Origin: Verrucomicrobiota bacterium
Lineage (GTDB): Bacteria; Verrucomicrobiota; Verrucomicrobiia; Verrucomicrobiales; DEV007
Assembly: GCA_018970725.1 (NCBI GenBank)
Contig: JAGWVU010000026.1
Coordinates: 1 to 64,000, forward strand
Direction: 5' to 3'
DNA: 64,000 nucleotides
Shown here: positions 118-54,726 of the stretch, piece by piece
Numbering within the stretch: the first letter of the stretch is position 1
Layout of the letters: each line of letters starts with the position of its first letter
Notes under the pieces: model-generated
What the model was told of the DNA's origin: nothing
Databases searched by the model: none
The model's input: only the letters and a program-made list of their open reading frames with translations
Position numbers and translations under genes: made by a program

Positions 118-2550
118 TCAGCGCGAACGATCGGCGGGAGTGGGTCCGGACGGCGCTTGATAGACGGGTGTTTTCAGCGAGGCGTCCCGGCTGATGAGTT
201 TTCCGGCGCGCACGTCTTCTTCCCGGAGGGTGGCCATGACGATCCGGCCGTTGAGGCGCTCCTGATCGTAGACGATTTGGATGCGGCCGTCGGGCGACTG
301 GATGCCGTCGGGATAGCTGCAAGGCCGCTCGTCGAGCAAGAGGCCGCCCTGCCAGGTCTCGCCCTCGTCGTCGGAGAGATAGGCGGTGAGGTGGGTGCGG
401 CCGGTTTTTTCCTTCAATCGTCCGTGCTTCACGAGCAGGACCTTGCCGCTCTGGAGTTTCATCATGAAGAGGCGTGAAGCGGGATGCACCAGCTTCGATG
501 GCTCCGGCGTGGACCAGGTGCGGGCGCCGTCCGTGGACCGGGACTCGCACAAGCCGTAGTTGGTCCGGAGGAGGCAGCGCAGCTCGCCGGACGTTTTCTC
601 GATGAAGTGCGGCTCGTCCCAATCCCAGGCCTCCGGCGGTGCGGTCACCCCGCCGCGGCGCTCCCACGTGGTTCCCTGGTCCTTCGAGACGAAGCAGTTG
701 CTCATGCGCAGGGGATCGAGTTCGCGGAAGAGGTCGCTCTCCTTCATGTCGCCCATGAGGATGCCGATGCACTTGCGCGGAAAGAGCGTGGCGGAGAGCA
801 GCCAGCCACCATCGCGCAGGATGACCGGTTTGTTGACGTATTCGCCATCGGCGAGCCGTCGTGGGATGCCCCAGGTGAGCTTGTCGGCATCGGGGTTCTC
901 GCAGACCGCGGCCCAGATGCCGGAGCGGCCGTCGAAGATGCCGAGTGAATACGGGAAGAACCACCACAAGCGTCCCTGTGGATCGGTCCACAGGTAGGTG
1001 CCGTTGACCGAGCGGGGAAATCCATTCGGTGTGGGCGGCTCCTTGAGCAGATAACGCGGCCCGGTCCATGTCCGGCCCTCGTCGTCGCTCGAGGCGAGCA
1101 TCGAATACCCTCCGGGCCCGTCCTCGCCAGCGCCCCAGCAGACCCAGAGCCGACCCCGGAGCGTTCTCGCGATGCCCGGATACGCCACATGCTGCCTTCC
1201 TTCGAGCAACTTGGGATCGTTGAACTCACGAACGCGTGGCGGGACAAGCATCAAAGGCAGGTCTTCGCGGACTTTCGCCACCTTTGCTTCCGGCGCCTTC
1301 TGGAGAGCCGCTACGCCCCGGCTCATGCCTTGCGCCCGGCTCTTCACGAGGTTCTTCAGCGCCGCGTCCTTGCTGACGAGCTTGCCGGCCTGGACGTCTT
1401 CCTCGCGGAAGCGGGCAAAAAGGATCTCGGCTGCGCCGGTGCGCTCGCGATCATAGTGGACGTAGATGTCGCCGTTTGGAGCCTGCGCGATGTCGGGGTA
1501 GGAGACGTCGTTGCGTTCGTCGAGTAGCAGCTTGCCGGACCAGCTTTTGCCTTCGTCGCTGGTGAGGAAGGCGGTGAGTTCCTTACGCTTGGCTGTGGCT
1601 TTCGTGATTTCCCGACCGTGGCGGATGATCAGCAGGTGGCCGGATTGGAGGCGGCGGATGACGGCCTTGCTGTTCACATGCGGAAAGGCGGTGGACTGCG
1701 GCTGCCAGGTCTTGCCGCCGTCGGTCGAGAAGCTCTGGAAGGTCGCCTTCATGCCGCGCGAGAGCATCCAGAGGCGACCGTCGTTCAATTCGGCCACGGT
1801 GTGCTCGTTGAAGCAACTGTCCTGATAAATAATGCCTCCGCGGTAGCGCCAGTGCCCGCCTTCGTCATCGGAGACGAAGACGTTCGCGCCGCGCACGGCG
1901 TCGAGTTCGTGGTAGCAATCGGCAAAGGGCTTGTCGATGTGCCAGCGTTCCCAGAGCGACACAGGCAAGATCCACTCGCCGTTCTGGCGCACGATGGGTT
2001 TGTTCAGCGAAGCACCGAAGCCGATGTAAACCGGCTGCGTCCACAGGGGCTTCTCCGCATCGGGATCATCGCAGCGAACATACCAGTTGCTGCAACTGCC
2101 GTCGAACATGCCGCAGGACTGATGGAAGAACAACCAGAGCCGCCCCTTGGGATCGCACCAGAAGGAGCCGAGCCGCGTGCCCATCTTCAAACCGTGGGCC
2201 TGTGGATCGATCACGAACACCGGATCACGCCACGACTTGCCCTGGTCATCGCTGTAGCTTGCCAGGAGATAGGCGTTCGGCCCGTCCTGCCCGCCCGCCC
2301 AGCAGGTCCAGAGCCGGCCTTTGGACGTGGACTCCATGCTCGCCGCCATGGCGAAGGGCAGATACTTCTGCCCATAGGCGGGCATCGGATTGAAGATGAG
2401 CTGCGGCGGGACGTGGATGCTGTTAAGCAGCTCCTGGGTCACTTTGACGGCAGGCTTCGGTGGATCGGCCGCCCGCGTGGTGGCCGGAACCGGGCCGAGC
2501 GCGGTCATGAGCAGAAGGGCGGTCCGGAAGGCGGAGCGACAGGGTTTCAT
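118..2550 (-). CDS. Exported sialidase-like BNR-repeat protein, two tandem propeller halves
   Basis: Predicted 810-aa exported protein of the exo-alpha-sialidase (BNR/Asp-box) type, probably cleaving or binding sialic-acid-like sugars on glycans. A signal peptide covers about residues 1-27 (basic start, LLLMTALG core, cleavage near TTRAA). Eight Asp-box-like motifs (S-x-D-x-G-x-T/S-W) are visible, for example SDDQGKSW, STDGGKTW and TSDEGKSW in the first half and SSDDEGRTW, VSKDQGTTW and LSDDEGETW in the second. The two halves (about 50-400 and 445-800) are homologous; both end in a block of the form LLLDER...SYPD...REEDV.AGKL.S.DA. This doubles the usual sialidase length. The ATG at 2550 was chosen because the signal peptide starts there; the frame stays open 19 codons further upstream. 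Divergent from an araC-type gene that may control it. Substrate is not shown by the sequence. Confidence 0.85.
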   Translation of the reverse strand: MKPCRSAFRTALLLMTALGPVPATTRAADPPKPAVKVTQELLNSIHVPPQLIFNPMPAYGQKYLPFAMAASMESTSKGRLWTCWAGGQDGPNAYLLASYSDDQGKSWRDPVFVIDPQAHGLKMGTRLGSFWCDPKGRLWLFFHQSCGMFDGSCSNWYVRCDDPDAEKPLWTQPVYIGFGASLNKPIVRQNGEWILPVSLWERWHIDKPFADCYHELDAVRGANVFVSDDEGGHWRYRGGIIYQDSCFNEHTVAELNDGRLWMLSRGMKATFQSFSTDGGKTWQPQSTAFPHVNSKAVIRRLQSGHLLIIRHGREITKATAKRKELTAFLTSDEGKSWSGKLLLDERNDVSYPDIAQAPNGDIYVHYDRERTGAAEILFARFREEDVQAGKLVSKDAALKNLVKSRAQGMSRGVAALQKAPEAKVAKVREDLPLMLVPPRVREFNDPKLLEGRQHVAYPGIARTLRGRLWVCWGAGEDGPGGYSMLASSDDEGRTWTGPRYLLKEPPTPNGFPRSVNGTYLWTDPQGRLWWFFPYSLGIFDGRSGIWAAVCENPDADKLTWGIPRRLADGEYVNKPVILRDGGWLLSATLFPRKCIGILMGDMKESDLFRELDPLRMSNCFVSKDQGTTWERRGGVTAPPEAWDWDEPHFIEKTSGELRCLLRTNYGLCESRSTDGARTWSTPEPSKLVHPASRLFMMKLQSGKVLLVKHGRLKEKTGRTHLTAYLSDDEGETWQGGLLLDERPCSYPDGIQSPDGRIQIVYDQERLNGRIVMATLREEDVRAGKLISRDASLKTPVYQAPSGPTPADRSR

Positions 2551-2556
2551 GGGGGA

Positions 2557-2583
2557 ATCATACCATTGGCGATTTCCTATAAT
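2557..2583. promoter_or_regulatory. Divergent promoter region between sialidase and AraC genes
   Basis: The 60-base gap between the divergent starts holds two -10-like hexamers. On the plus strand TATAAT lies at 2578-2583, 27 bases before the AraC start. On the minus strand TATGAT lies at 2562-2557, only six bases before the sialidase ATG, so that transcript would begin at or very near the start codon. No good -35 box accompanies either one. These are sequence matches only. Confidence 0.35.
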
Positions 2584-2610
2584 TGCAGAAAAGTTTTTCG
2601 ACATCATGCT

Positions 2611-3546
2611 ATGAACGATTTTGCAATGAGCGACAAACCGCCTGCCGGCTGCCCGATCATCACTTCGGCCGACTCACTCGGGCGTGACGACGTCGTTTTG
2701 TCCGGAGCGCAACTCTCCTGCGTCGGGCTGGATTACGTGTCGACCAACACGCGGTTCACGGCGCATCCGTTGGGCTGGCACAGTCATCGCGGGGCCGAAC
2801 TCATCTTCATGTTGAGGGGAGCCAGCGGATATTCGTTTGCGCAGGGGCCCGAGCTTTCTTTGACGGGCGGGCACTTTCTCATCATTCCCCCCGGGATGGC
2901 GCACCGCGGGAGCAAAAACATCCGCGAGCCTTCGACGGTGTGCGCCATGATCCTCGATTCCCGGGACGGGAGCCCAAAGGAGGGAATCTTCACCGACCGG
3001 GAGACAGCGTGGTTGCAAGCGAGCCTCTCCACGGACTTCCCCCGGATCCGTCCGATGACTCCGGCGATGCGCCAGACCGCGAAGTGGCTCCATGAAGGCC
3101 TGACGCGGCAGGATCGCGTCGCCGGGGAGGATCCCACGCTGTTCGCCAATTTGCGTCTTCAGGTCAGTTCGCTCCTCCTGCATGCAGCCCAGCAGATCCG
3201 TCAACAGGCGCGCCTTCCGCCCCCCGGTGTGGTCGAGCGGGCCAAGGGCCTCATGGTCGCGCGGTTGGCCGAGCCGATGACGATCGACGAAGTGGCGGAT
3301 CGGCTGGCGTGCGGGCGGACGCGCCTTTTTCATGCTTTCAAGCGGGAGACTGGCATGACTCCGGTGGATTGGCTGCAACGGCAGCGGGTGGCCACGGCGC
3401 TGGAACTGTTGCAGAGGACGGACCGCACCCTCACCGACATCGCCAACGCGGTCGGTCTTTCCTCCTCGGCCTATCTCTGCCACATCGTCAAGCGATATAC
3501 CGGCCGTCCTCCCGGGGCGCACCGCAGGATGGTGGGCGGAGGGTGA
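2611..3546 (+). CDS. AraC-family transcriptional regulator with cupin sensor domain
   Basis: 311-aa regulator. The N-terminal half is an AraC-type cupin sensor; its typical pieces are WHSHRGAELIFMLRG and GHFLIIPPGMAHRG at about 55-100. The C-terminal 100 residues carry the two helix-turn-helix units of the AraC/XylS class: MTIDEVADRLACGRTRLFHAF, then the conserved second helix in TLTDIANAVGLSSSAYLCHI, followed by KRYTGRPPGAHRR. The ATG at 2611 was taken because the sensor domain starts soon after it; the frame upstream is only antisense of the sialidase gene. Its divergent position suggests control of the sialidase in response to a sugar (inference). Confidence 0.92.
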   Translation: MNDFAMSDKPPAGCPIITSADSLGRDDVVLSGAQLSCVGLDYVSTNTRFTAHPLGWHSHRGAELIFMLRGASGYSFAQGPELSLTGGHFLIIPPGMAHRGSKNIREPSTVCAMILDSRDGSPKEGIFTDRETAWLQASLSTDFPRIRPMTPAMRQTAKWLHEGLTRQDRVAGEDPTLFANLRLQVSSLLLHAAQQIRQQARLPPPGVVERAKGLMVARLAEPMTIDEVADRLACGRTRLFHAFKRETGMTPVDWLQRQRVATALELLQRTDRTLTDIANAVGLSSSAYLCHIVKRYTGRPPGAHRRMVGGG

Positions 3547-3552
3547 GACAAG

Positions 3553-3580
3553 GGTGAGGACGGAGGCGCGGCGCCTCACC
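3553..3580. terminator. Hairpin between convergent AraC and lipA genes
   Basis: A 7-base inverted repeat (GGTGAGG at 3553-3559, CCTCACC at 3574-3580) sits in the 41-base convergent gap. It could act for both strands, but neither side has a T run, so it is only a possible terminator. Confidence 0.35.
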
Positions 3581-3587
3581 GGTCACC

Positions 3588-4487
3588 TCATTCCGGGCTG
3601 GAATCCAACTCCGGCCGGAAGTCGGCGGCATGGTAGGAACTGCGGACGAGAGGACCGGAAGCGACATGGCGGAAACCCTTGCTTTGGGCCACGGTCTTGT
3701 ACTGCGCGAACTTGTCGGGATGGATGTAAGCGACGACCGGGAGGTGGTTTTGGGAGGGGCGGAGGTATTGTCCCAGGGTGAGGACGGTGACTTGGTGGGC
3801 GCGCAGGTCGTCCATGGCTTGGAAGAGTTCCTCTTCGGTCTCGCCGAGTCCGAGCATGAGGCCGCTTTTGGTGGCCACGGAAGGGACCATTTCCTTGGCC
3901 TTGGCGAGGACTTCGAGAGATCGGTGGTAGCGGGCCCGGGAACGCACCAGTGGAGTGAGACGTTCGACGGTTTCGAGGTTGTGGTTGAAGATGTGAGGGC
4001 GCGCCTCCATCACCGTGTGGAGGGCTTCGTCTTTTCCGTTGAAGTCGGGCACGAGAACCTCGATGACGATGCCGGGGTTGGCCTCGCGCACGGCTTCGAT
4101 GGTGCGGGCGAAGTGTCCGGCGCCGCCATCCGGTTCGTCGTCCCGGGCCACGGCGGTGATGACCACGTGGTTGAGGCGGAGCCGTTTGGTGGCTTCGGCA
4201 ACGCGCCCGGGTTCATCCGCCTCCAAGGGAAACGGTTTGGCGGTCTTGACCGCGCAGAAGCCGCAGGCGCGGGTGCAGCGGTCTCCCGCGATCATGAAGG
4301 TGGCGGTGCCTTGTCCCCAACATTCCCAGCGGTTGGGGCACTGTGCCTCCTCGCACACGGTATGGAGGCGGAGGTCCGAGACGAGTGCCTTGGTGGACCA
4401 GAAAACCGGGTTGTTGGGGAGACGGACCTTGATCCATTCCGGTTTGCGCTCCTGATGGAGTTGGGGATCGATCGTGGGCTTAGGCAT
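3588..4487 (-). CDS. lipA: Lipoyl synthase
   Basis: 299-aa radical SAM enzyme that inserts two sulfur atoms into protein-bound octanoyl groups to make the lipoyl cofactor of 2-oxoacid dehydrogenases and the glycine cleavage system. The auxiliary cluster cysteines appear as C45, C50 and C56 (CEEAQCPNRWEC) and the radical SAM triad as C71, C75 and C78 (CTRACGFC). The C-terminal RSSYHA motif, whose serine ligates the auxiliary cluster, is present. Length is normal. The ATG at 4487 lies inside the end of recR (8-base overlap), so the two are likely co-transcribed. No lipB is in the window. Confidence 0.97.
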   Translation of the reverse strand: MPKPTIDPQLHQERKPEWIKVRLPNNPVFWSTKALVSDLRLHTVCEEAQCPNRWECWGQGTATFMIAGDRCTRACGFCAVKTAKPFPLEADEPGRVAEATKRLRLNHVVITAVARDDEPDGGAGHFARTIEAVREANPGIVIEVLVPDFNGKDEALHTVMEARPHIFNHNLETVERLTPLVRSRARYHRSLEVLAKAKEMVPSVATKSGLMLGLGETEEELFQAMDDLRAHQVTVLTLGQYLRPSQNHLPVVAYIHPDKFAQYKTVAQSKGFRHVASGPLVRSSYHAADFRPELDSSPE

Positions 4488-5094
4488 CGTGGGAAAGGTT
4501 GCGGCGGTGCTGGAAGGCCCGGTGCAGTGTCAGGGAGTCCGCGGTGTCCAGACCTCCCCCGACCGGCATTCCTTGGGCCAGACGGGTCAGACGCACATTC
4601 GACGAACGGAGAATTTCCGCCAGATAATTCGCCGTGGCTTCGCCCGCGACATCGGCCCCGGTGGCGAGGACCACTTCCTCGAATTCTCCGGTGCGGATCC
4701 GGTCCATCAATTCTCCGATCCGCAGATCCTCTGGTCCGACATTGTCCAACGGCGCGAGGCGTCCGCCGAGCGCGTGGTAATGACCGCGAAAGGCCCCGGT
4801 CCGTTCGATGGGGAGAATGTCGGTCGGTTGTTCAACGATGCAGAGGAGGCGGGGATCGCGATCCGGAGCCTGACAGATGGCGCAGCCTTCCCGGGTAGCG
4901 AAGAATCCGCAGGAAGCGCAGGGTTTGATTTCCTGTTCCACCTGGACCAAGACCTCGGAGAGGGCGGCGAGGGTGCCGACGGGTTGTTGCAAGAGCCACA
5001 ACGACATCCGCTCCGCACTGCGCGACCCGATGCCGGGGAGGCGTTTGAGGTGGAGGATGAGCGATTGAAGTGCGGTGGGGTATTCGAGATTCAC
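4480..5094 (-). CDS. recR: Recombination mediator protein RecR
   Basis: 204-aa RecR, which works with RecF/RecO to load RecA at single-strand gaps. Visible parts: helix-hairpin-helix PGIG at residues 20-23, a four-cysteine zinc motif (C59, C62, C71, C74) and the Toprim domain from about 82 (CIVEQPTDI...FRGHYHALGG). Length fits the family. The start codon is GTG at 5094. The next upstream gene, the degenerate cyclase, ends 16 bases away, and lipA overlaps its 3' end, so it sits in the middle of a tightly packed minus-strand run. Confidence 0.97.
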   Translation of the reverse strand: MNLEYPTALQSLILHLKRLPGIGSRSAERMSLWLLQQPVGTLAALSEVLVQVEQEIKPCASCGFFATREGCAICQAPDRDPRLLCIVEQPTDILPIERTGAFRGHYHALGGRLAPLDNVGPEDLRIGELMDRIRTGEFEEVVLATGADVAGEATANYLAEILRSSNVRLTRLAQGMPVGGGLDTADSLTLHRAFQHRRNLSHDA

Positions 5095-48530: not shown

Positions 48531-48659
48531 CGACGCGACGTTCGGAGGGATGCGTTGGAGTTTCAAGCGATTCCTTGAGCAACCGGAGCCTCCGGAGAGG
48601 CCGGGCGTTCAGGGGTGGGGAAGTTTGCCTGCTTCAATGGGCGCAGAAAAATGGGCTGA

Positions 48660-48724
48660 TGTTTTATGATATGTTGATTGAAACTTTAAAATTATAGATT
48701 ACCCATACCGACTTTTATTATAGA
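48660..48724 (+). promoter_or_regulatory. AT-rich upstream region of the NRPS operon
   Basis: About 65 bases before the NRPS start are strikingly AT-rich for this genome (TTTTATGATATG, CTTTAAAATTATAG, CTTTTATTATAG). TATTAT at 48716-48721 matches the -10 consensus at five of six positions, though no clear -35 lies at the proper distance. Likely a promoter, possibly with an AT-rich activator or H-NS-like binding region. A GTG at 48725 is in frame with the NRPS but would lie at the transcript start, supporting ATG 48779. Confidence 0.45.
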
Positions 48725-48778
48725 GTGGGCGCCGATTCATCGCTCGCCGTGCTTCAGGTAGCTTGGGATCATTTGGTG

Positions 48779-51700
48779 ATGACGTCGGAATCCATGAAAT
48801 TGCCGCTCTCTTTCGGGCAGGGGCAGCTCTGGTTCCTGGAGCAGTTGGCTCCGGGCAGGTCGGATTATCATTCAACCGATGCGGTGCGGATTCGCGGGGA
48901 GCTGGATCCCGGGCGATTGGAGTGCGCGCTCGGGGCGCTGGTGGAGCGGCACGATTCCCTGCGGACGCGCTTCATGGTGATCGAGGGTCAGCCGTTCCAG
49001 ACGATCGAGAGCCGGGTGAAAGTGGAACTGCTCCGTTGGGTGGCCGGAGGGGAATCGGCGGAGGAGAGGGAGTCGGCGGCCAGAGACAGGATCTCGAGCT
49101 TTTCCCGGGAGCCGATCGATTTGGCCCGGGCTCCGTTGTGGCGGGTGCAACTGATAGAGATCGGGCCCAGCGAATATTGGATGGTTCTGGTGATCCATCA
49201 CATTCTATTCGACGGATGGTCGTGCGGACTCTTTTGGGAGGGGCTGATGGAAGCCTATCGATCGCATGGGGGCGATCGGGATGGGATCGATACCGGGTCT
49301 GATTTGCAGCTTGCAGATTTCATCCGTTGGGAGCGGGATCATTTGCAAGGGGCGGTCTTGGACGACCTGTTGTCTTATTGGAAGGAAAAGTTGGGCGGAA
49401 CGCTTCCGGTAATGGAGCTGCCCATGGATTTCGCGCGGCCCGCCGAGGCGAGTCATCGTGGAGGCAAGAGATCTTTGGCCTTGCCGGCGCGTTTGGCGAC
49501 GCGTCTTCGCGAATTGGCCCGTGAAGCGCAAACCACGCTCTTCATTACCCTCCTCGCCGCCTATAAAGTCTTTTTATATCGCTACACAAACCAAGAGGAT
49601 TTGGTGGTAGGAACGCCCTTTGCCACCCGGTCTTGGCCGGGGCATGAGACGATTTTCGGGTTTTTGGTGAATACCTTGGTGCTGCGGAGCCGGGTCCGGG
49701 AGGAAAGCAGTTTCCGCGATTTTCTCGCGGAGGTGCGGGCGACTGCAGTCGAGGCCTACGACCATGGCGAGCTGCCCTTCAACCTATTGGTGGAAGCGCT
49801 GCAACCCGAACGCACCGCCTCGGGCAATCCATTGTTCCAGACAATGTTCCAGATGAACGGGCGGCAGGAGATTTCCGGGGGGGGGGCGGGGATCTCGTTG
49901 GATCCGCTGGTGCTGGATGGGGAATTCTCCAATTTCGATCTCACGCTTGAAGTGTTGGAGACCGGAGGCGGCTTGATGCTGCGGATGGAATATGCCTCGG
50001 ATCTTTTTCTGCCGGCAACGATCGACCGGATGCTGCACAATTATCTCTTCCTGCTGGAGGAGATTGGCGCGGACCCGACGAGACCCATCGCAGAGTTGAG
50101 GTGTGTCTGTGCGGATGAGGCGAATACCTTGCTTGAGGTTTGGAGTCGGGAGGCGTCCGGTGGAAATTTTCGGGGCGCGATCGATCTGAGTCTTTCCCTG
50201 AGAACGTTGCCCGATGGAGTGCGCGCGGAAGTGGTGCAACATGGCGAACGTTTGTCGAAGCAAACTTTGCTTGCAGCATTGGAGAAATGCGTCGCGGGGT
50301 TGCGCGAATCCGGTGGAGTGAGCTCGGATGGCGGGCGGCGGCAGAGTTGGTCTCTGAGCGATTCCGCTTCGAGCTATTCGGTGGACGCGCCGGTCCATTG
50401 CCTGCACACCTACATTGAAGCGCAGGCGGCGCGCAATCCGGACCGGATTGCCGTTTCCCATCAGGACCGGGCCCTGACCTACGGCGAGCTGAATGCGGCG
50501 GCGAACCAACTCGCCCATGAACTGATCGGACGTGGAGTACGGCCTGACATGCCAGTGGGGATTTGCCTCAGGCGCTGTCCGGAGATGGTGGTTGCCTTGT
50601 TGGCGATTCTCAAAGCAGGTGGAGCCTATCTGCCGTTGGATCCAGGATATCCGCTGGAGCGGCTCAAGTTCAAGGTGGACGATGCCAACATCCGGGTGCT
50701 CGTCACCGACCTTGAGTTACACGAGAAATTGGCCCTGCCGGTATCTGTGGTGCTTTGTGTGGATCGTGACGGACCGGAATGGGCGGGATTGAGCCGGGAA
50801 AATCCGGTGGTGGATTTGGATCTTTCAAATCTCGCCTATTTTATTTACACTTCAGGCTCTTCCGGGAGACCCAAGGGTGTGATGATCGAGCACCGGGCGG
50901 TTTCTCATTTCGTTCAAGCCGCGATCCAACACTATGGGATCTCCTCTGAAGATTGCATGTTGCAGTTTGGTTCGATCAGCTTCGACCTGGCGGTGGAGGA
51001 AATCTTCACCTGCCTGGTTGCCGGCGGGCGATTGCAGTTGCGGGATGAGGACATGATGGGGTCGTCCTCGCTGTTCATGCGCCGGTGTCAGGAGTGGGGA
51101 GTGACGATTTTGGACCTTCCGACCGCCTATTGGCATCAGCTGGTGGCCGATCTGGAACAGGGCGACCTGCGGTTTCCGAAGGAAGTCCGACTCGTGATCA
51201 TCGGTGGAGAACGGGTCTTGCCGGGGGCGGTGCAGGCATGGCTGCGGAAGGTCGGGGGGCGCCCACGGCTCTTCAATTCTTACGGACCGACGGAAACCAC
51301 GGTGGTGGCGACCGGTTATTGGATCGATGATGACCTTCCGTCAAGAAGCCAGGTGCCGATCGGCAAGCCTTTGGCCAACACGGAAATCTATGTCTTGGAC
51401 GGTCGAAAAAGGTTGGTTCCGATCGGCGCGGAAGGCGAGTTGTATATTGGTGGGCAGAGCGTTTCCCGGGGGTATCTCAACCGTCCGGAATTGACGGCCG
51501 CTTGCTTCGTCGAAGATCCATTCCGAGCCGGTTCCGGACGAAAACTCTACAAGACCGGAGACCGGGTCCGCTTCCTGCAGGATGGCAGTCTGGAGTTTCT
51601 CGGACGCATCGATACCCAGGTGAAGATCCGGGGGTTCCGGATCGAGCCGGGGGAGATCGAGACGATGCTGCTGCGTTGCTCTGATGTCCGTGAGGCGGTG

Positions 51701-53032
51701 GTGTTGGCCTTGCCGGACTCATCCGGGGGGCATTTGCTGACCGCTTATGTGGTTCCGTCCAAGGAGCGCCCGGTCGCTCCCCGGGAGCTCACGGGATTCC
51801 TCAAAAAGAGTTTGCCCGGCTACATGGTGCCGGCGGCGCTGGTGTTGTTGGAGCGTCTGCCGTTGACACCCAACGGGAAGATCGACACCCGGGCCCTGCC
51901 TGCCCCTTTGCCCTCCGATATGACGGCTGAGAGTCAGGATGTGAGCCGGACCGGGCCCAACAATCCGCTGGAAGAGAAGTTGGCCCGGATCTGGGCCGAG
52001 GTCCTGGGACTGCCGAACGTGGGGATTGGCGACCGCTTTTTCGATCTCGGCGGCCATTCGTTGCAGGCGTTTCGCATGCTCACGATGATCCGCCAGCAGT
52101 TGGAGGTCGAGATCCAGCTTTCCGCCTTGTTCCAGGCACCGAGCGTGGCGGAAATGGCGGTTTTGTTGGCGCAGAAGGGAGTGGAGGTTCCTTGGTCCCC
52201 GTTGGTGCCTTTCCAGGGGCAAGGCACGCGACTGCCTTTTTTTGCGATTCATGGCGGGCACGGCGAAGTTTTGTTCTACAAGGGCCTCGCGGAGCATCTG
52301 GGGCCGGATCAGCCGTTTTATGCGCTGCGCGCCCGGGGAAATGATTTCCCGGATAATCCCCATCGGACGGTGGAGGAGATGGCCGCCGACTACATAAGGG
52401 CGATCCGTTCGATCCAGCCCGATGGGCCCTATCGGATTGGAGGGGCGAGTTTTGGCGGGATTGTCGCGTTTGAAATGGCGAAGCAGTTGCAGGAGTCGGG
52501 TCTTGCGGTGGAACGTTTGATTCTATTTGATACCGGTGGGTTCCGTGAATTCCTGACCCCTTTGCCTCTGGGCAGAAGAGTATTGAACCTACTCCGATAC
52601 TTGCCGAGATACGGACTCCGGGAAGTCTGGCACCGCCTGAAGATCCGGATCCTGCGCTTTTTCGTGAGTGAATCGGTGGTGGAATTCTATCGGGCCACGG
52701 GCACGCTGCCGAAGGAGTCCTCCGCCATCATTTTTACCTGGCAGGCGGTGTGGCAGGCGAATCTGGAGGCAGCGGACCGCTATGTGCCGACGGTCTATCC
52801 CGGTGAACTCACCCTGATCCGTGCGGTGGATGACGGAAATTATATGTGGTATCGTTACGACTCTGATTACGGATGGGGGGAATTATCCGAAGGTGGCGTG
52901 GTGGGTTATGATGTACCCGGGACGCACATTGGCATGTTTCAAGAACCGTATGTGAAGAGGCTTGCCGAAACCATGGAGGTTTTATTGAGTGGGGCGACGC
53001 AACAAAGGGTGGGAGGGGGCGCCGTGCGATGA
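48779..53032 (+). CDS. Single-module nonribosomal peptide synthetase (C-A-PCP-TE)
   Basis: 1417-aa NRPS. Condensation domain about 1-435 with the active HHILFDG motif (about 140-146). Adenylation domain about 535-1035: A3 YTSGSSGRPKG (about 689), A5 NSYGPTE (about 833), A7 YKTGDRVRF, A8 QVKIRGFRIEPGEIE, A10 NGKID. Carrier domain with GGHSLQAF, Ser about 1094. C-terminal type I thioesterase with GASFGG (Ser about 1224). Between C and A lies an extra degenerate A-domain start (about 450-520). All catalytic residues are intact, so it should load one amino acid, condense it with an acyl or aminoacyl donor and release the product. Start ATG 48779; GTG 48725 is an alternative. It overlaps the exporter gene by four bases. 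No MbtH, phosphopantetheinyl transferase or second module is present. Confidence 0.93.
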   Translation: MTSESMKLPLSFGQGQLWFLEQLAPGRSDYHSTDAVRIRGELDPGRLECALGALVERHDSLRTRFMVIEGQPFQTIESRVKVELLRWVAGGESAEERESAARDRISSFSREPIDLARAPLWRVQLIEIGPSEYWMVLVIHHILFDGWSCGLFWEGLMEAYRSHGGDRDGIDTGSDLQLADFIRWERDHLQGAVLDDLLSYWKEKLGGTLPVMELPMDFARPAEASHRGGKRSLALPARLATRLRELAREAQTTLFITLLAAYKVFLYRYTNQEDLVVGTPFATRSWPGHETIFGFLVNTLVLRSRVREESSFRDFLAEVRATAVEAYDHGELPFNLLVEALQPERTASGNPLFQTMFQMNGRQEISGGGAGISLDPLVLDGEFSNFDLTLEVLETGGGLMLRMEYASDLFLPATIDRMLHNYLFLLEEIGADPTRPIAELRCVCADEANTLLEVWSREASGGNFRGAIDLSLSLRTLPDGVRAEVVQHGERLSKQTLLAALEKCVAGLRESGGVSSDGGRRQSWSLSDSASSYSVDAPVHCLHTYIEAQAARNPDRIAVSHQDRALTYGELNAAANQLAHELIGRGVRPDMPVGICLRRCPEMVVALLAILKAGGAYLPLDPGYPLERLKFKVDDANIRVLVTDLELHEKLALPVSVVLCVDRDGPEWAGLSRENPVVDLDLSNLAYFIYTSGSSGRPKGVMIEHRAVSHFVQAAIQHYGISSEDCMLQFGSISFDLAVEEIFTCLVAGGRLQLRDEDMMGSSSLFMRRCQEWGVTILDLPTAYWHQLVADLEQGDLRFPKEVRLVIIGGERVLPGAVQAWLRKVGGRPRLFNSYGPTETTVVATGYWIDDDLPSRSQVPIGKPLANTEIYVLDGRKRLVPIGAEGELYIGGQSVSRGYLNRPELTAACFVEDPFRAGSGRKLYKTGDRVRFLQDGSLEFLGRIDTQVKIRGFRIEPGEIETMLLRCSDVREAVVLALPDSSGGHLLTAYVVPSKERPVAPRELTGFLKKSLPGYMVPAALVLLERLPLTPNGKIDTRALPAPLPSDMTAESQDVSRTGPNNPLEEKLARIWAEVLGLPNVGIGDRFFDLGGHSLQAFRMLTMIRQQLEVEIQLSALFQAPSVAEMAVLLAQKGVEVPWSPLVPFQGQGTRLPFFAIHGGHGEVLFYKGLAEHLGPDQPFYALRARGNDFPDNPHRTVEEMAADYIRAIRSIQPDGPYRIGGASFGGIVAFEMAKQLQESGLAVERLILFDTGGFREFLTPLPLGRRVLNLLRYLPRYGLREVWHRLKIRILRFFVSESVVEFYRATGTLPKESSAIIFTWQAVWQANLEAADRYVPTVYPGELTLIRAVDDGNYMWYRYDSDYGWGELSEGGVVGYDVPGTHIGMFQEPYVKRLAETMEVLLSGATQQRVGGGAVR

Positions 53033-54687
53033 AGGTTTTGCTTTTTGTCTTCCGCACTTCCCCCTTGGTCGTGAGCCTCGCGGCCGGAGCCGCGGTATTG
53101 AGCGGCTTGGCGAGCGGAGGTTTGATCGCCTTGGTGAACAGCGCGCTGAGTGGCGGGCCCGGGAGCGGAAGTGGCCTTGGGTGGAAGTTTCTCGCTCTGG
53201 TGGTTTTGAGTCTGGTCACGGCGGTCGCGGCGAATGTGACCGTCGCCTGGTTCTACCGGAAGGTGGTGTTGGAAATGCAGATGCGCCTCGCCCGTCGCAT
53301 CACCGAAACCCCATTGCGGAACCTTGAGGAAGTGGGAAGCGCACCGCTGCTCGGTGTGTTGACCGATGATGTGGCGAAGATCGGGGATGTGGCGACGGTG
53401 ATGGTGCCGTTGATTGCCAATTTGGCGACAACGGCCGCCTGTTTTGTTTATCTGCTCCGGCTCTCGCCCCCCGCCTTTGTCGGCACGGTGATTTTCCTGG
53501 TCTTGGGCGGATTGTCCTACAAGCTTCTGACGGGCCGGGAGCGGGTCCTGCTGGCAGAAGGGCGAAACCGGATGGACAGCGTCTACCGCTATTTTCATGA
53601 CCTCACGCATGGTTTGAAGGAATTGAAGCTGAGTCACGCGCGGTGTGAGAGGTTTCTCGGAGGGGTCTTGCGTCCGGCGGCCGCCGTCGTGCAGAGACAT
53701 TTGTTCCTTTGGGACGTGACGTTTGCCGCGATCAGCACCTGGGGAAGATTTCTCATTCTGGTGGTGGTGGGGTTGGTGCTTTTTGTCCTGCCGCGGTTTG
53801 TTTCGTTTTCACCCGGAGTCTTGAGTGGTTATGTTTTGGTGCTGCTCTATGTGCGCTCCTCGCTGTTATCCGCGCTCGACTCCCTGCCGCACCTTTCGGC
53901 GGCGGCGGTATCGCTTCGGAAAATCGAGTCGTTTGGCCTGGACGTCACGGCCGAGCCGGTGCCCGTCTCCGGAGAGGGTCATCTTCCGTCAGGCTGGAAC
54001 ACGCTCACGTTGTCCCGGGTGACCCATAGCTATTATCACGACCGCGAGGACTGCCAGTTCACCCTGGGGCCGATCGACTTGAAGCTGCGCCGTGGAGAGA
54101 TCGTCTTCGTGGTCGGGGGGAATGGCAGTGGGAAAACCACAATGTCCAAGGTGGTCATGGGCTTGTATCCTGCGGAGGGCGGGGTGATTGATCTGGATGG
54201 AACGGTGGTCCGGCCCGGTGATCTGTTGGAATACCGGCAGCTTTTCGGTGCGGTTTTCACGGATTTCCATCTCTTCGAGGACCTGCTCGGTTTGGAGGTC
54301 ACCAAGTTGGAGGAAGAGGCGGAGGCCTATCTCCGGAGGCTGGATTTGGATCACAAGGTAAGGATCGAGGGCGGTCGTCTCTCGACGACCCGTGCGCTCT
54401 CCAGAGGGCAACAACAACGATTGGCCCTCCTCGCCGCCTATCTCGAGGACCGGACCTTTTATATTTTCGACGAGTGGGCCGCCAATCAGGATCCGTCCTT
54501 CCGCGAGGTCTTCTACACCGAGTTGCTGCCGGAGTTGAGGGCGAAAGGCAAGGGAGTCCTGGTGATCAGCCATGATGACCAGTATTTCGGGGTTGCGGAC
54601 AGGATCCTCAAACTGGTCGATGGGAAGATCATCGCCGATGAGAAAGTGGTCCCGGCGGGGAAAACACGGCCCGGGAAGGCGGCGTAG
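53029..54687 (+). CDS. Cyclic-peptide-type ABC exporter (SyrD/PvdE family)
   Basis: 552-aa fused ABC exporter. Six membrane segments lie within 1-300 and the ATPase domain at about 325-540: Walker A GGNGSGKTT, signature LSRGQQQRLALL and Walker B FYIFDEWAANQDP; the DEWAA-QDP form is typical of exporters for nonribosomal peptides and pyoverdine precursors (SyrD/PvdE). The ATG overlaps the NRPS stop (ATGA), so production and export are coupled. The likely cargo is the NRPS product (inference). A strong terminator follows. Confidence 0.93.
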   Translation: MKVLLFVFRTSPLVVSLAAGAAVLSGLASGGLIALVNSALSGGPGSGSGLGWKFLALVVLSLVTAVAANVTVAWFYRKVVLEMQMRLARRITETPLRNLEEVGSAPLLGVLTDDVAKIGDVATVMVPLIANLATTAACFVYLLRLSPPAFVGTVIFLVLGGLSYKLLTGRERVLLAEGRNRMDSVYRYFHDLTHGLKELKLSHARCERFLGGVLRPAAAVVQRHLFLWDVTFAAISTWGRFLILVVVGLVLFVLPRFVSFSPGVLSGYVLVLLYVRSSLLSALDSLPHLSAAAVSLRKIESFGLDVTAEPVPVSGEGHLPSGWNTLTLSRVTHSYYHDREDCQFTLGPIDLKLRRGEIVFVVGGNGSGKTTMSKVVMGLYPAEGGVIDLDGTVVRPGDLLEYRQLFGAVFTDFHLFEDLLGLEVTKLEEEAEAYLRRLDLDHKVRIEGGRLSTTRALSRGQQQRLALLAAYLEDRTFYIFDEWAANQDPSFREVFYTELLPELRAKGKGVLVISHDDQYFGVADRILKLVDGKIIADEKVVPAGKTRPGKAA

Positions 54688-54699
54688 ATACCGCTCCCT

Positions 54700-54726
54700 C
54701 CGGGGCATCCCCGGCTTTCTCGTTTT
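54700..54726 (+). terminator. Rho-independent terminator of the NRPS-exporter operon
   Basis: CCGGGG (54700-54705), loop CAT, CCCCGG (54709-54714), then CTTTCTCGTTTT. Six G-C pairs and a T-rich tail 12 bases after the exporter stop make a convincing plus-strand terminator, before the convergent queD. Confidence 0.8.

Follow-up and report, generated by a model that had tools for sequence, protein, structure and literature searches.

A lone C-A-PCP-TE module and its exporter as the probable remote end of a split FkbH assembly line in a verrucomicrobial genus

An NRPS gene that encodes a single module, starting with a condensation (C) domain and ending in a thioesterase (TE), raises the question of what its C domain accepts and where the donor is made. 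Such a gene, followed by an exporter gene, lies at positions 48779-54726 of the window, the stretch of 64,000 nucleotides of a Verrucomicrobiota bacterium analysed here (GCA_018970725.1, contig JAGWVU010000026.1; hereafter genome G000). The initial annotation had these coordinates right and was also right in describing a compact NRPS with exporter and without known product, but took the locus to be self-contained, with an acyl chain or a free amine from outside as donor. Here we explore the locus, its relatives and the other NRPS genes of the genome in order to identify the probable donor. The reading we prefer, to which we assign a probability of about 0.6, is that the locus is the detached or remote terminal module of a split PKS-NRPS line that starts with an FkbH domain and is encoded on another contig.

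The NRPS gene is a single open reading frame, in which Condensation (325 bits), AMP-binding (288), AMP-binding_C, PP-binding and Thioesterase (87) all score above the Pfam cut-offs (Table 1); an alternative GTG start lies at 48725. Catalytic motifs were found in all four domains, including, besides those listed in Table 1, the adenylation (A) cores with the A10 lysine and, in the TE, GASFGG with candidate Asp and His. Judged by domains and motifs, the protein is a complete C-A-PCP-TE termination module, as had been proposed. It scored 612 bits against a cut-off of 2300 for the MxcG equivalog and 400 against 2400 for that of EntF (NCBIfam), and so belongs to neither. The TE is the only one of NRPS type in the genome, a second thioesterase considered on contig C86 being an ordinary alpha/beta hydrolase by sequence. 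No Pfam match was obtained for the C-A linker; its interpretation as a duplicated C-domain end or a remnant of the beginning of an A domain was rejected, the column-shuffle score being reached by 9/200 and 7/200 shuffles. An AlphaFold model of a confidence too low to decide the matter (mean pLDDT 42) gave a strand-strand-helix that resembles the end of a C domain.

Table 1. Features of the NRPS-exporter locus, in positions of the window.
Feature	Position	Strand	Details	Evidence
AT-rich upstream region	48640..48778	+	presumed promoter region	
NRPS gene	48779..53032	+	C-A-PCP-TE, 1417 aa	Pfam, ORF, orthologue starts near the same place
Condensation domain	48797..50131	+	HHILFDG at 49196	Pfam and motif
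C-A linker	50099..50401	+	~100 aa, long, fast-evolving	26-41% identity among sisters
Adenylation domain	50417..51880	+	AMP-binding and C-terminal subdomain; code DLEDIGSVV	Pfam, alignment
PCP	51974..52159	+	GGHS, Ser at 52058-52060	Pfam and motif
Thioesterase	52238..52984	+	candidate triad codons Ser 52448, Asp 52529, His 52925	
ABC exporter	53029..54687	+	cyclic peptide export family TIGR01194, 552 aa	
GC hairpin	54700..54714	+	6 pairs, 3' of exporter stop, weak terminator candidate	

NRPS and exporter genes form an operon, overlapping by 4 bases (ATGA, 53029-53032), and the exporter passes TIGR01194 of NCBIfam with 433 bits against a cut-off of 286, which bears out its earlier assignment to the SyrD/PvdE type. 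Of the promoter region that had been claimed for the locus, the AT-richness stands, since 48640-48730 has 34% GC and the two sister genomes (G001 and G002) have comparable upstream stretches, of 35-38% GC, but no sigma-70-like promoter was found in it. The strong terminator that had been claimed was not recovered: the hairpin behind the exporter has a poor T-tail, the next gene is convergent, and the 9 terminator-like sites of the region, against 10.3 in shuffles, are no better than chance. The pair has 59-60% GC, against 64-65% for neighbouring carA and purA, and the NRPS gene of G001 is likewise low (54% against 58% for its surroundings), which suggests that the pair was acquired.

A search for the pair in relatives, which the initial annotation had advised, found a lone C-A-PCP-TE gene with this exporter in 3/3 genomes of the genus and in 0/93 others (3/96 scanned overall). 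The two orthologues of the NRPS share 58% and 68% identity with the window protein and those of the exporter 72% and 82%; the NRPS of G002 is split by contig ends, the C domain ending one contig and the remainder another. Among the other 93 relatives no full-length match to the NRPS was found, and an exporter at E < 1e-60 occurred only in G011 (37%). The left flank (carA, purA, uppS) is common to the genus genomes and the right flank differs; to the right of the exporter the three genomes have three different neighbours, a rearrangement (G002 C113/L035 vs G000 C5/L042). Estimates of dN/dS, at a dS near saturation, are 0.09-0.20 for the C, A and TE domains and the exporter, values by which selection appears to keep the pair. 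G001 matches a public MAG contig, CAMCXS010000048.1 (L031), that is labelled Akkermansia muciniphila and falls in the genus of the window; this genus and the Akkermansia-sized genomes of the order belong to different families, and the label looks wrong.

Alignment gives the nine-residue A code as DLEDIGSVV in 3/3 genus genomes, and a literature search for exactly this code found nothing. Over the pocket region the closest solved A domain is ApnA A1, for which DVEDIGAIEK and DVEDIGAVEK are reported with Arg, and DVEDIGGVEK and DVEDIGGIEK with Arg and Lys (PMC5311044, Table 2). At positions 239 and 278 the three orthologues have the acidic residues E and D, matching these ApnA A1 genotypes (PMC5311044). 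Because the Arg and Arg/Lys genotypes share the code pattern, the window A domain is predicted to activate Arg or Lys.

The C domain was typed by ranking against solved C domains, not by a full subtype tree, and on this scale matches Txo2 (E 2e-73) and TycC (7e-70) far better than CDA C1 (4e-14). The TycC PCP-C didomain, the C domain of which we take to be LCL, is among its best matches, and the CDA starter C domain and EntF rank far lower. It is not closest to known starter C domains, therefore an acyl-starter role is not favoured. The ranking bears directly on the main rival to our reading, namely that the locus is an autonomous one-module synthetase whose C domain would use acyl-CoA, acyl-ACP or a free donor, so that an N-acyl-type Arg/Lys derivative would be exported. 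That no other biosynthetic gene adjoins the pair, and that AB3403 of Acinetobacter is a solved protein of equal domain order, agrees with such an enzyme; closeness to Txo and TycC and distance from the CDA starter and EntF do not, and together with the points raised below they make it unlikely.

Three C domains were found in the whole genome. One belongs to a line on contig C5 (L009 7688-17112, minus strand) with the order FkbH-ACP-KS-AT-ACP-AMT-C-A-PCP, which has no thioesterase and adjoins an Sfp-type PPTase. In G000 it consists of two genes, FkbH-ACP-KS-AT and ACP-AMT-C-A-PCP, joined by an ATGA overlap that led us to reject a frameshift; in G001 (3286 codons) and G002 (3162 codons; L038 249-9737) it is a single gene. 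The domains were confirmed by Pfam and NCBIfam, with the AT of G000 missed by Pfam and its AMT only partly recognised. A literature search on FkbH lines in Verrucomicrobia found no papers.

In 3/3 genomes the line of the genus stops 22-30 aa beyond its final PCP. In the other genera of this family, 11/11 lines, counting only those readable to the end, have a TE of their own, such that a TE-less line occurs in 3/3 genomes with the pair and in 0/11 lines where the pair is absent, a correlation that represents one evolutionary event. In a C-domain tree the genus lines nest among those of other genera, which bear a TE, and the loss of the TE is therefore derived; an autonomous synthetase would leave this loss unexplained. 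Further NRPS genes that might complete the assembly line, named at the outset as evidence against a self-contained locus, have thus been found in part, as a TE-less hybrid with an adjacent PPTase in all three genus genomes, and an outside donor to a self-contained locus is, given also the C-domain ranking, probably the wrong reading.

How such modules are arranged elsewhere was seen when 388 genomes of the phylum were scanned: the nearest exporters outside the genus are those of G104 (43%) and G205 (42%). Each is part of a related NRPS-PKS cluster of several genes, in a family of the class other than that of the window (G104:C23 and G205:C1; L089, L090, L093, L094). In both, a TE-less KS-AT-PCP-C-A-PCP protein is immediately followed by a C-A-PCP-TE protein and this in turn by the exporter, and two further C-A-PCP proteins lie upstream. 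In G011 the exporter lies behind an NRPS frame that ends in PCP-TE; for the more distant matches in G104:C24 and G223 no NRPS domain was found in the stretch fetched. As gene order in G104, G205 and G011 indicates, this exporter, where found with an NRPS, sits behind the terminating module. That homologous exporters follow the terminal modules of longer lines is a further point against an autonomous synthetase. The TE-less line in the genus, the lone pair only there and the precedent clusters together make a remote terminal module the most likely reading.

As a remote terminal module the locus would act at the end of the following series. The FkbH domain of the C5 line would load a glyceryl (or lactyl) unit on the ACP. 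In G001 this unit would be extended by malonate and beta-aminated; in G000 and G002 a non-elongating KS probably hands it on. The unit would then be coupled to one amino acid on the last PCP of the line, which has no release domain. From there the window C domain would take the chain in trans, A and PCP would add Arg (or Lys), the TE would release a linear or cyclic product and the ABC exporter would move it out of the cytoplasm.

The locus is best explained as a remote terminal module that was already in place in the common ancestor of the genus, where the line lost its own TE. A relocation of that TE into the module was rejected, as the window TE joins other NRPS TEs in the TE tree; neither the TE nor the C domain of the window derives from the FkbH line in the respective trees, therefore the module has another origin than the final module of the line. 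Against the hand-off it counts that the evidence comes from only three genomes and one evolutionary event. Module and line lie on different contigs in all three assemblies, which for G000 and G001 would also suit an autonomous synthetase. In G002 the exporter is followed by a block homologous to L042:445-1434, 1341-3095 and 3108-4904, and in G000 and G001 this block and the FkbH line are 17-21 kb apart; by synteny only, module and line would be ~20 kb apart in G002, the contigs of which break between them. No docking domain was found before the window C domain, and the tails of the line differ among genomes.

The state of the line itself differs between species. In G000 and G002, not in G001, the His of HGTGT in the KS is replaced by Asn with the Cys kept, GHSxGE of the AT has become GCGxGE with an internal deletion, and the PLP-lysine of the AMT is changed to Asp or Glu, with deletions. 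In three AMT domains (L061, L067 and L074) the PLP-lysine motif was not readable with the pattern used. All frames are open, with dN/dS of 0.56 for AT and 0.34 for AMT and 0.16-0.21 for FkbH, KS, C and A. The simplest reading is that G000 and G002 skip ketide extension and amination and keep the rest of the line in use, though dead AT and AMT domains could also mean a line on its way out. The latter leads to a second alternative, in which module and line have nothing to do with each other: the line would have lost its TE through decay or because another hydrolase serves for release, and the window module would have some other partner or iterate on Arg/Lys. The degenerate AT and AMT of G000 and G002 and the many generic hydrolases of the genome, for instance that on C86, would fit it, but the line of G001 is intact and yet without TE, and FkbH, KS, C and A are constrained in G000/G002 with open frames; we hold it to be slightly less probable still than an autonomous synthetase.

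Another conceivable upstream partner is a PKS-NRPS hybrid on contig C31 (4028-aa frame; L008/L007), as no TE follows its C-A-PCP. This frame has instead a C-terminal domain of ~400 aa that has no match in Pfam and weakly resembles part of PigE; it is probably a reductive release domain and a plausible means of release of its own. Moreover, genomes throughout the family that lack the pair have ~4000-aa frames of this sort; we regard termination of this hybrid by the window module as very improbable. The A code of the C31 hybrid is Gly-like, and similar frames are present in many genomes of the family.

Returning to the FkbH line as partner, a possible course of events, which we put forward tentatively, is that an ancestral line for glyceryl/beta-amino-acid units lost its TE in this genus, that release was given over to an independently acquired remote Arg/Lys module with its exporter, and that AT and AMT chemistry was later shed in two of the three species. 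If true, a natural re-engineering of an assembly line has been caught at two stages, and within one genus a terminal module was replaced and a line shut down domain by domain, which bears on enzyme evolution and on re-engineering. Genome mining locus by locus would see a self-contained minimal cluster in the window and a line without release on C5; when the loci are joined, the product predicted is no longer an acyl-Arg/Lys but a glyceryl (or beta-aminoacyl)-aminoacyl-Arg/Lys.

Among known systems, the exporter compares with the cyclic peptide exporters of SyrD/PvdE type, the family cut-off of which it passes. ApnA A1 of anabaenopeptin synthetase (PDB 4d4g) has the D-x-E-D-I-G pattern in common with the window A domain and differs from it in the last code positions, S-V-V in the window (PMC5311044). 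AB3403 (PDB 4zxh/4zxi) is the best full-length match to the PCP-TE part of the window NRPS (109 bits), whereas its C domain matches only moderately, at 131 bits where the best match reaches 251. As far as the final PCP, the FkbH lines of other genera of the family have the same domain order as the C5 line; they differ in bearing a TE and in occurring without the pair, and their A codes are mostly Val-like while those of the genus lines have diverged. The clusters of G104 and G205 share with the window the order of C-A-PCP-TE protein and exporter, but are contiguous where window module and line are separate; no FkbH domain was detected in them. Their A codes, in our reading Ala-like and Val-like, differ from the Arg/Lys-like code of the window, therefore they do not represent the same pathway.
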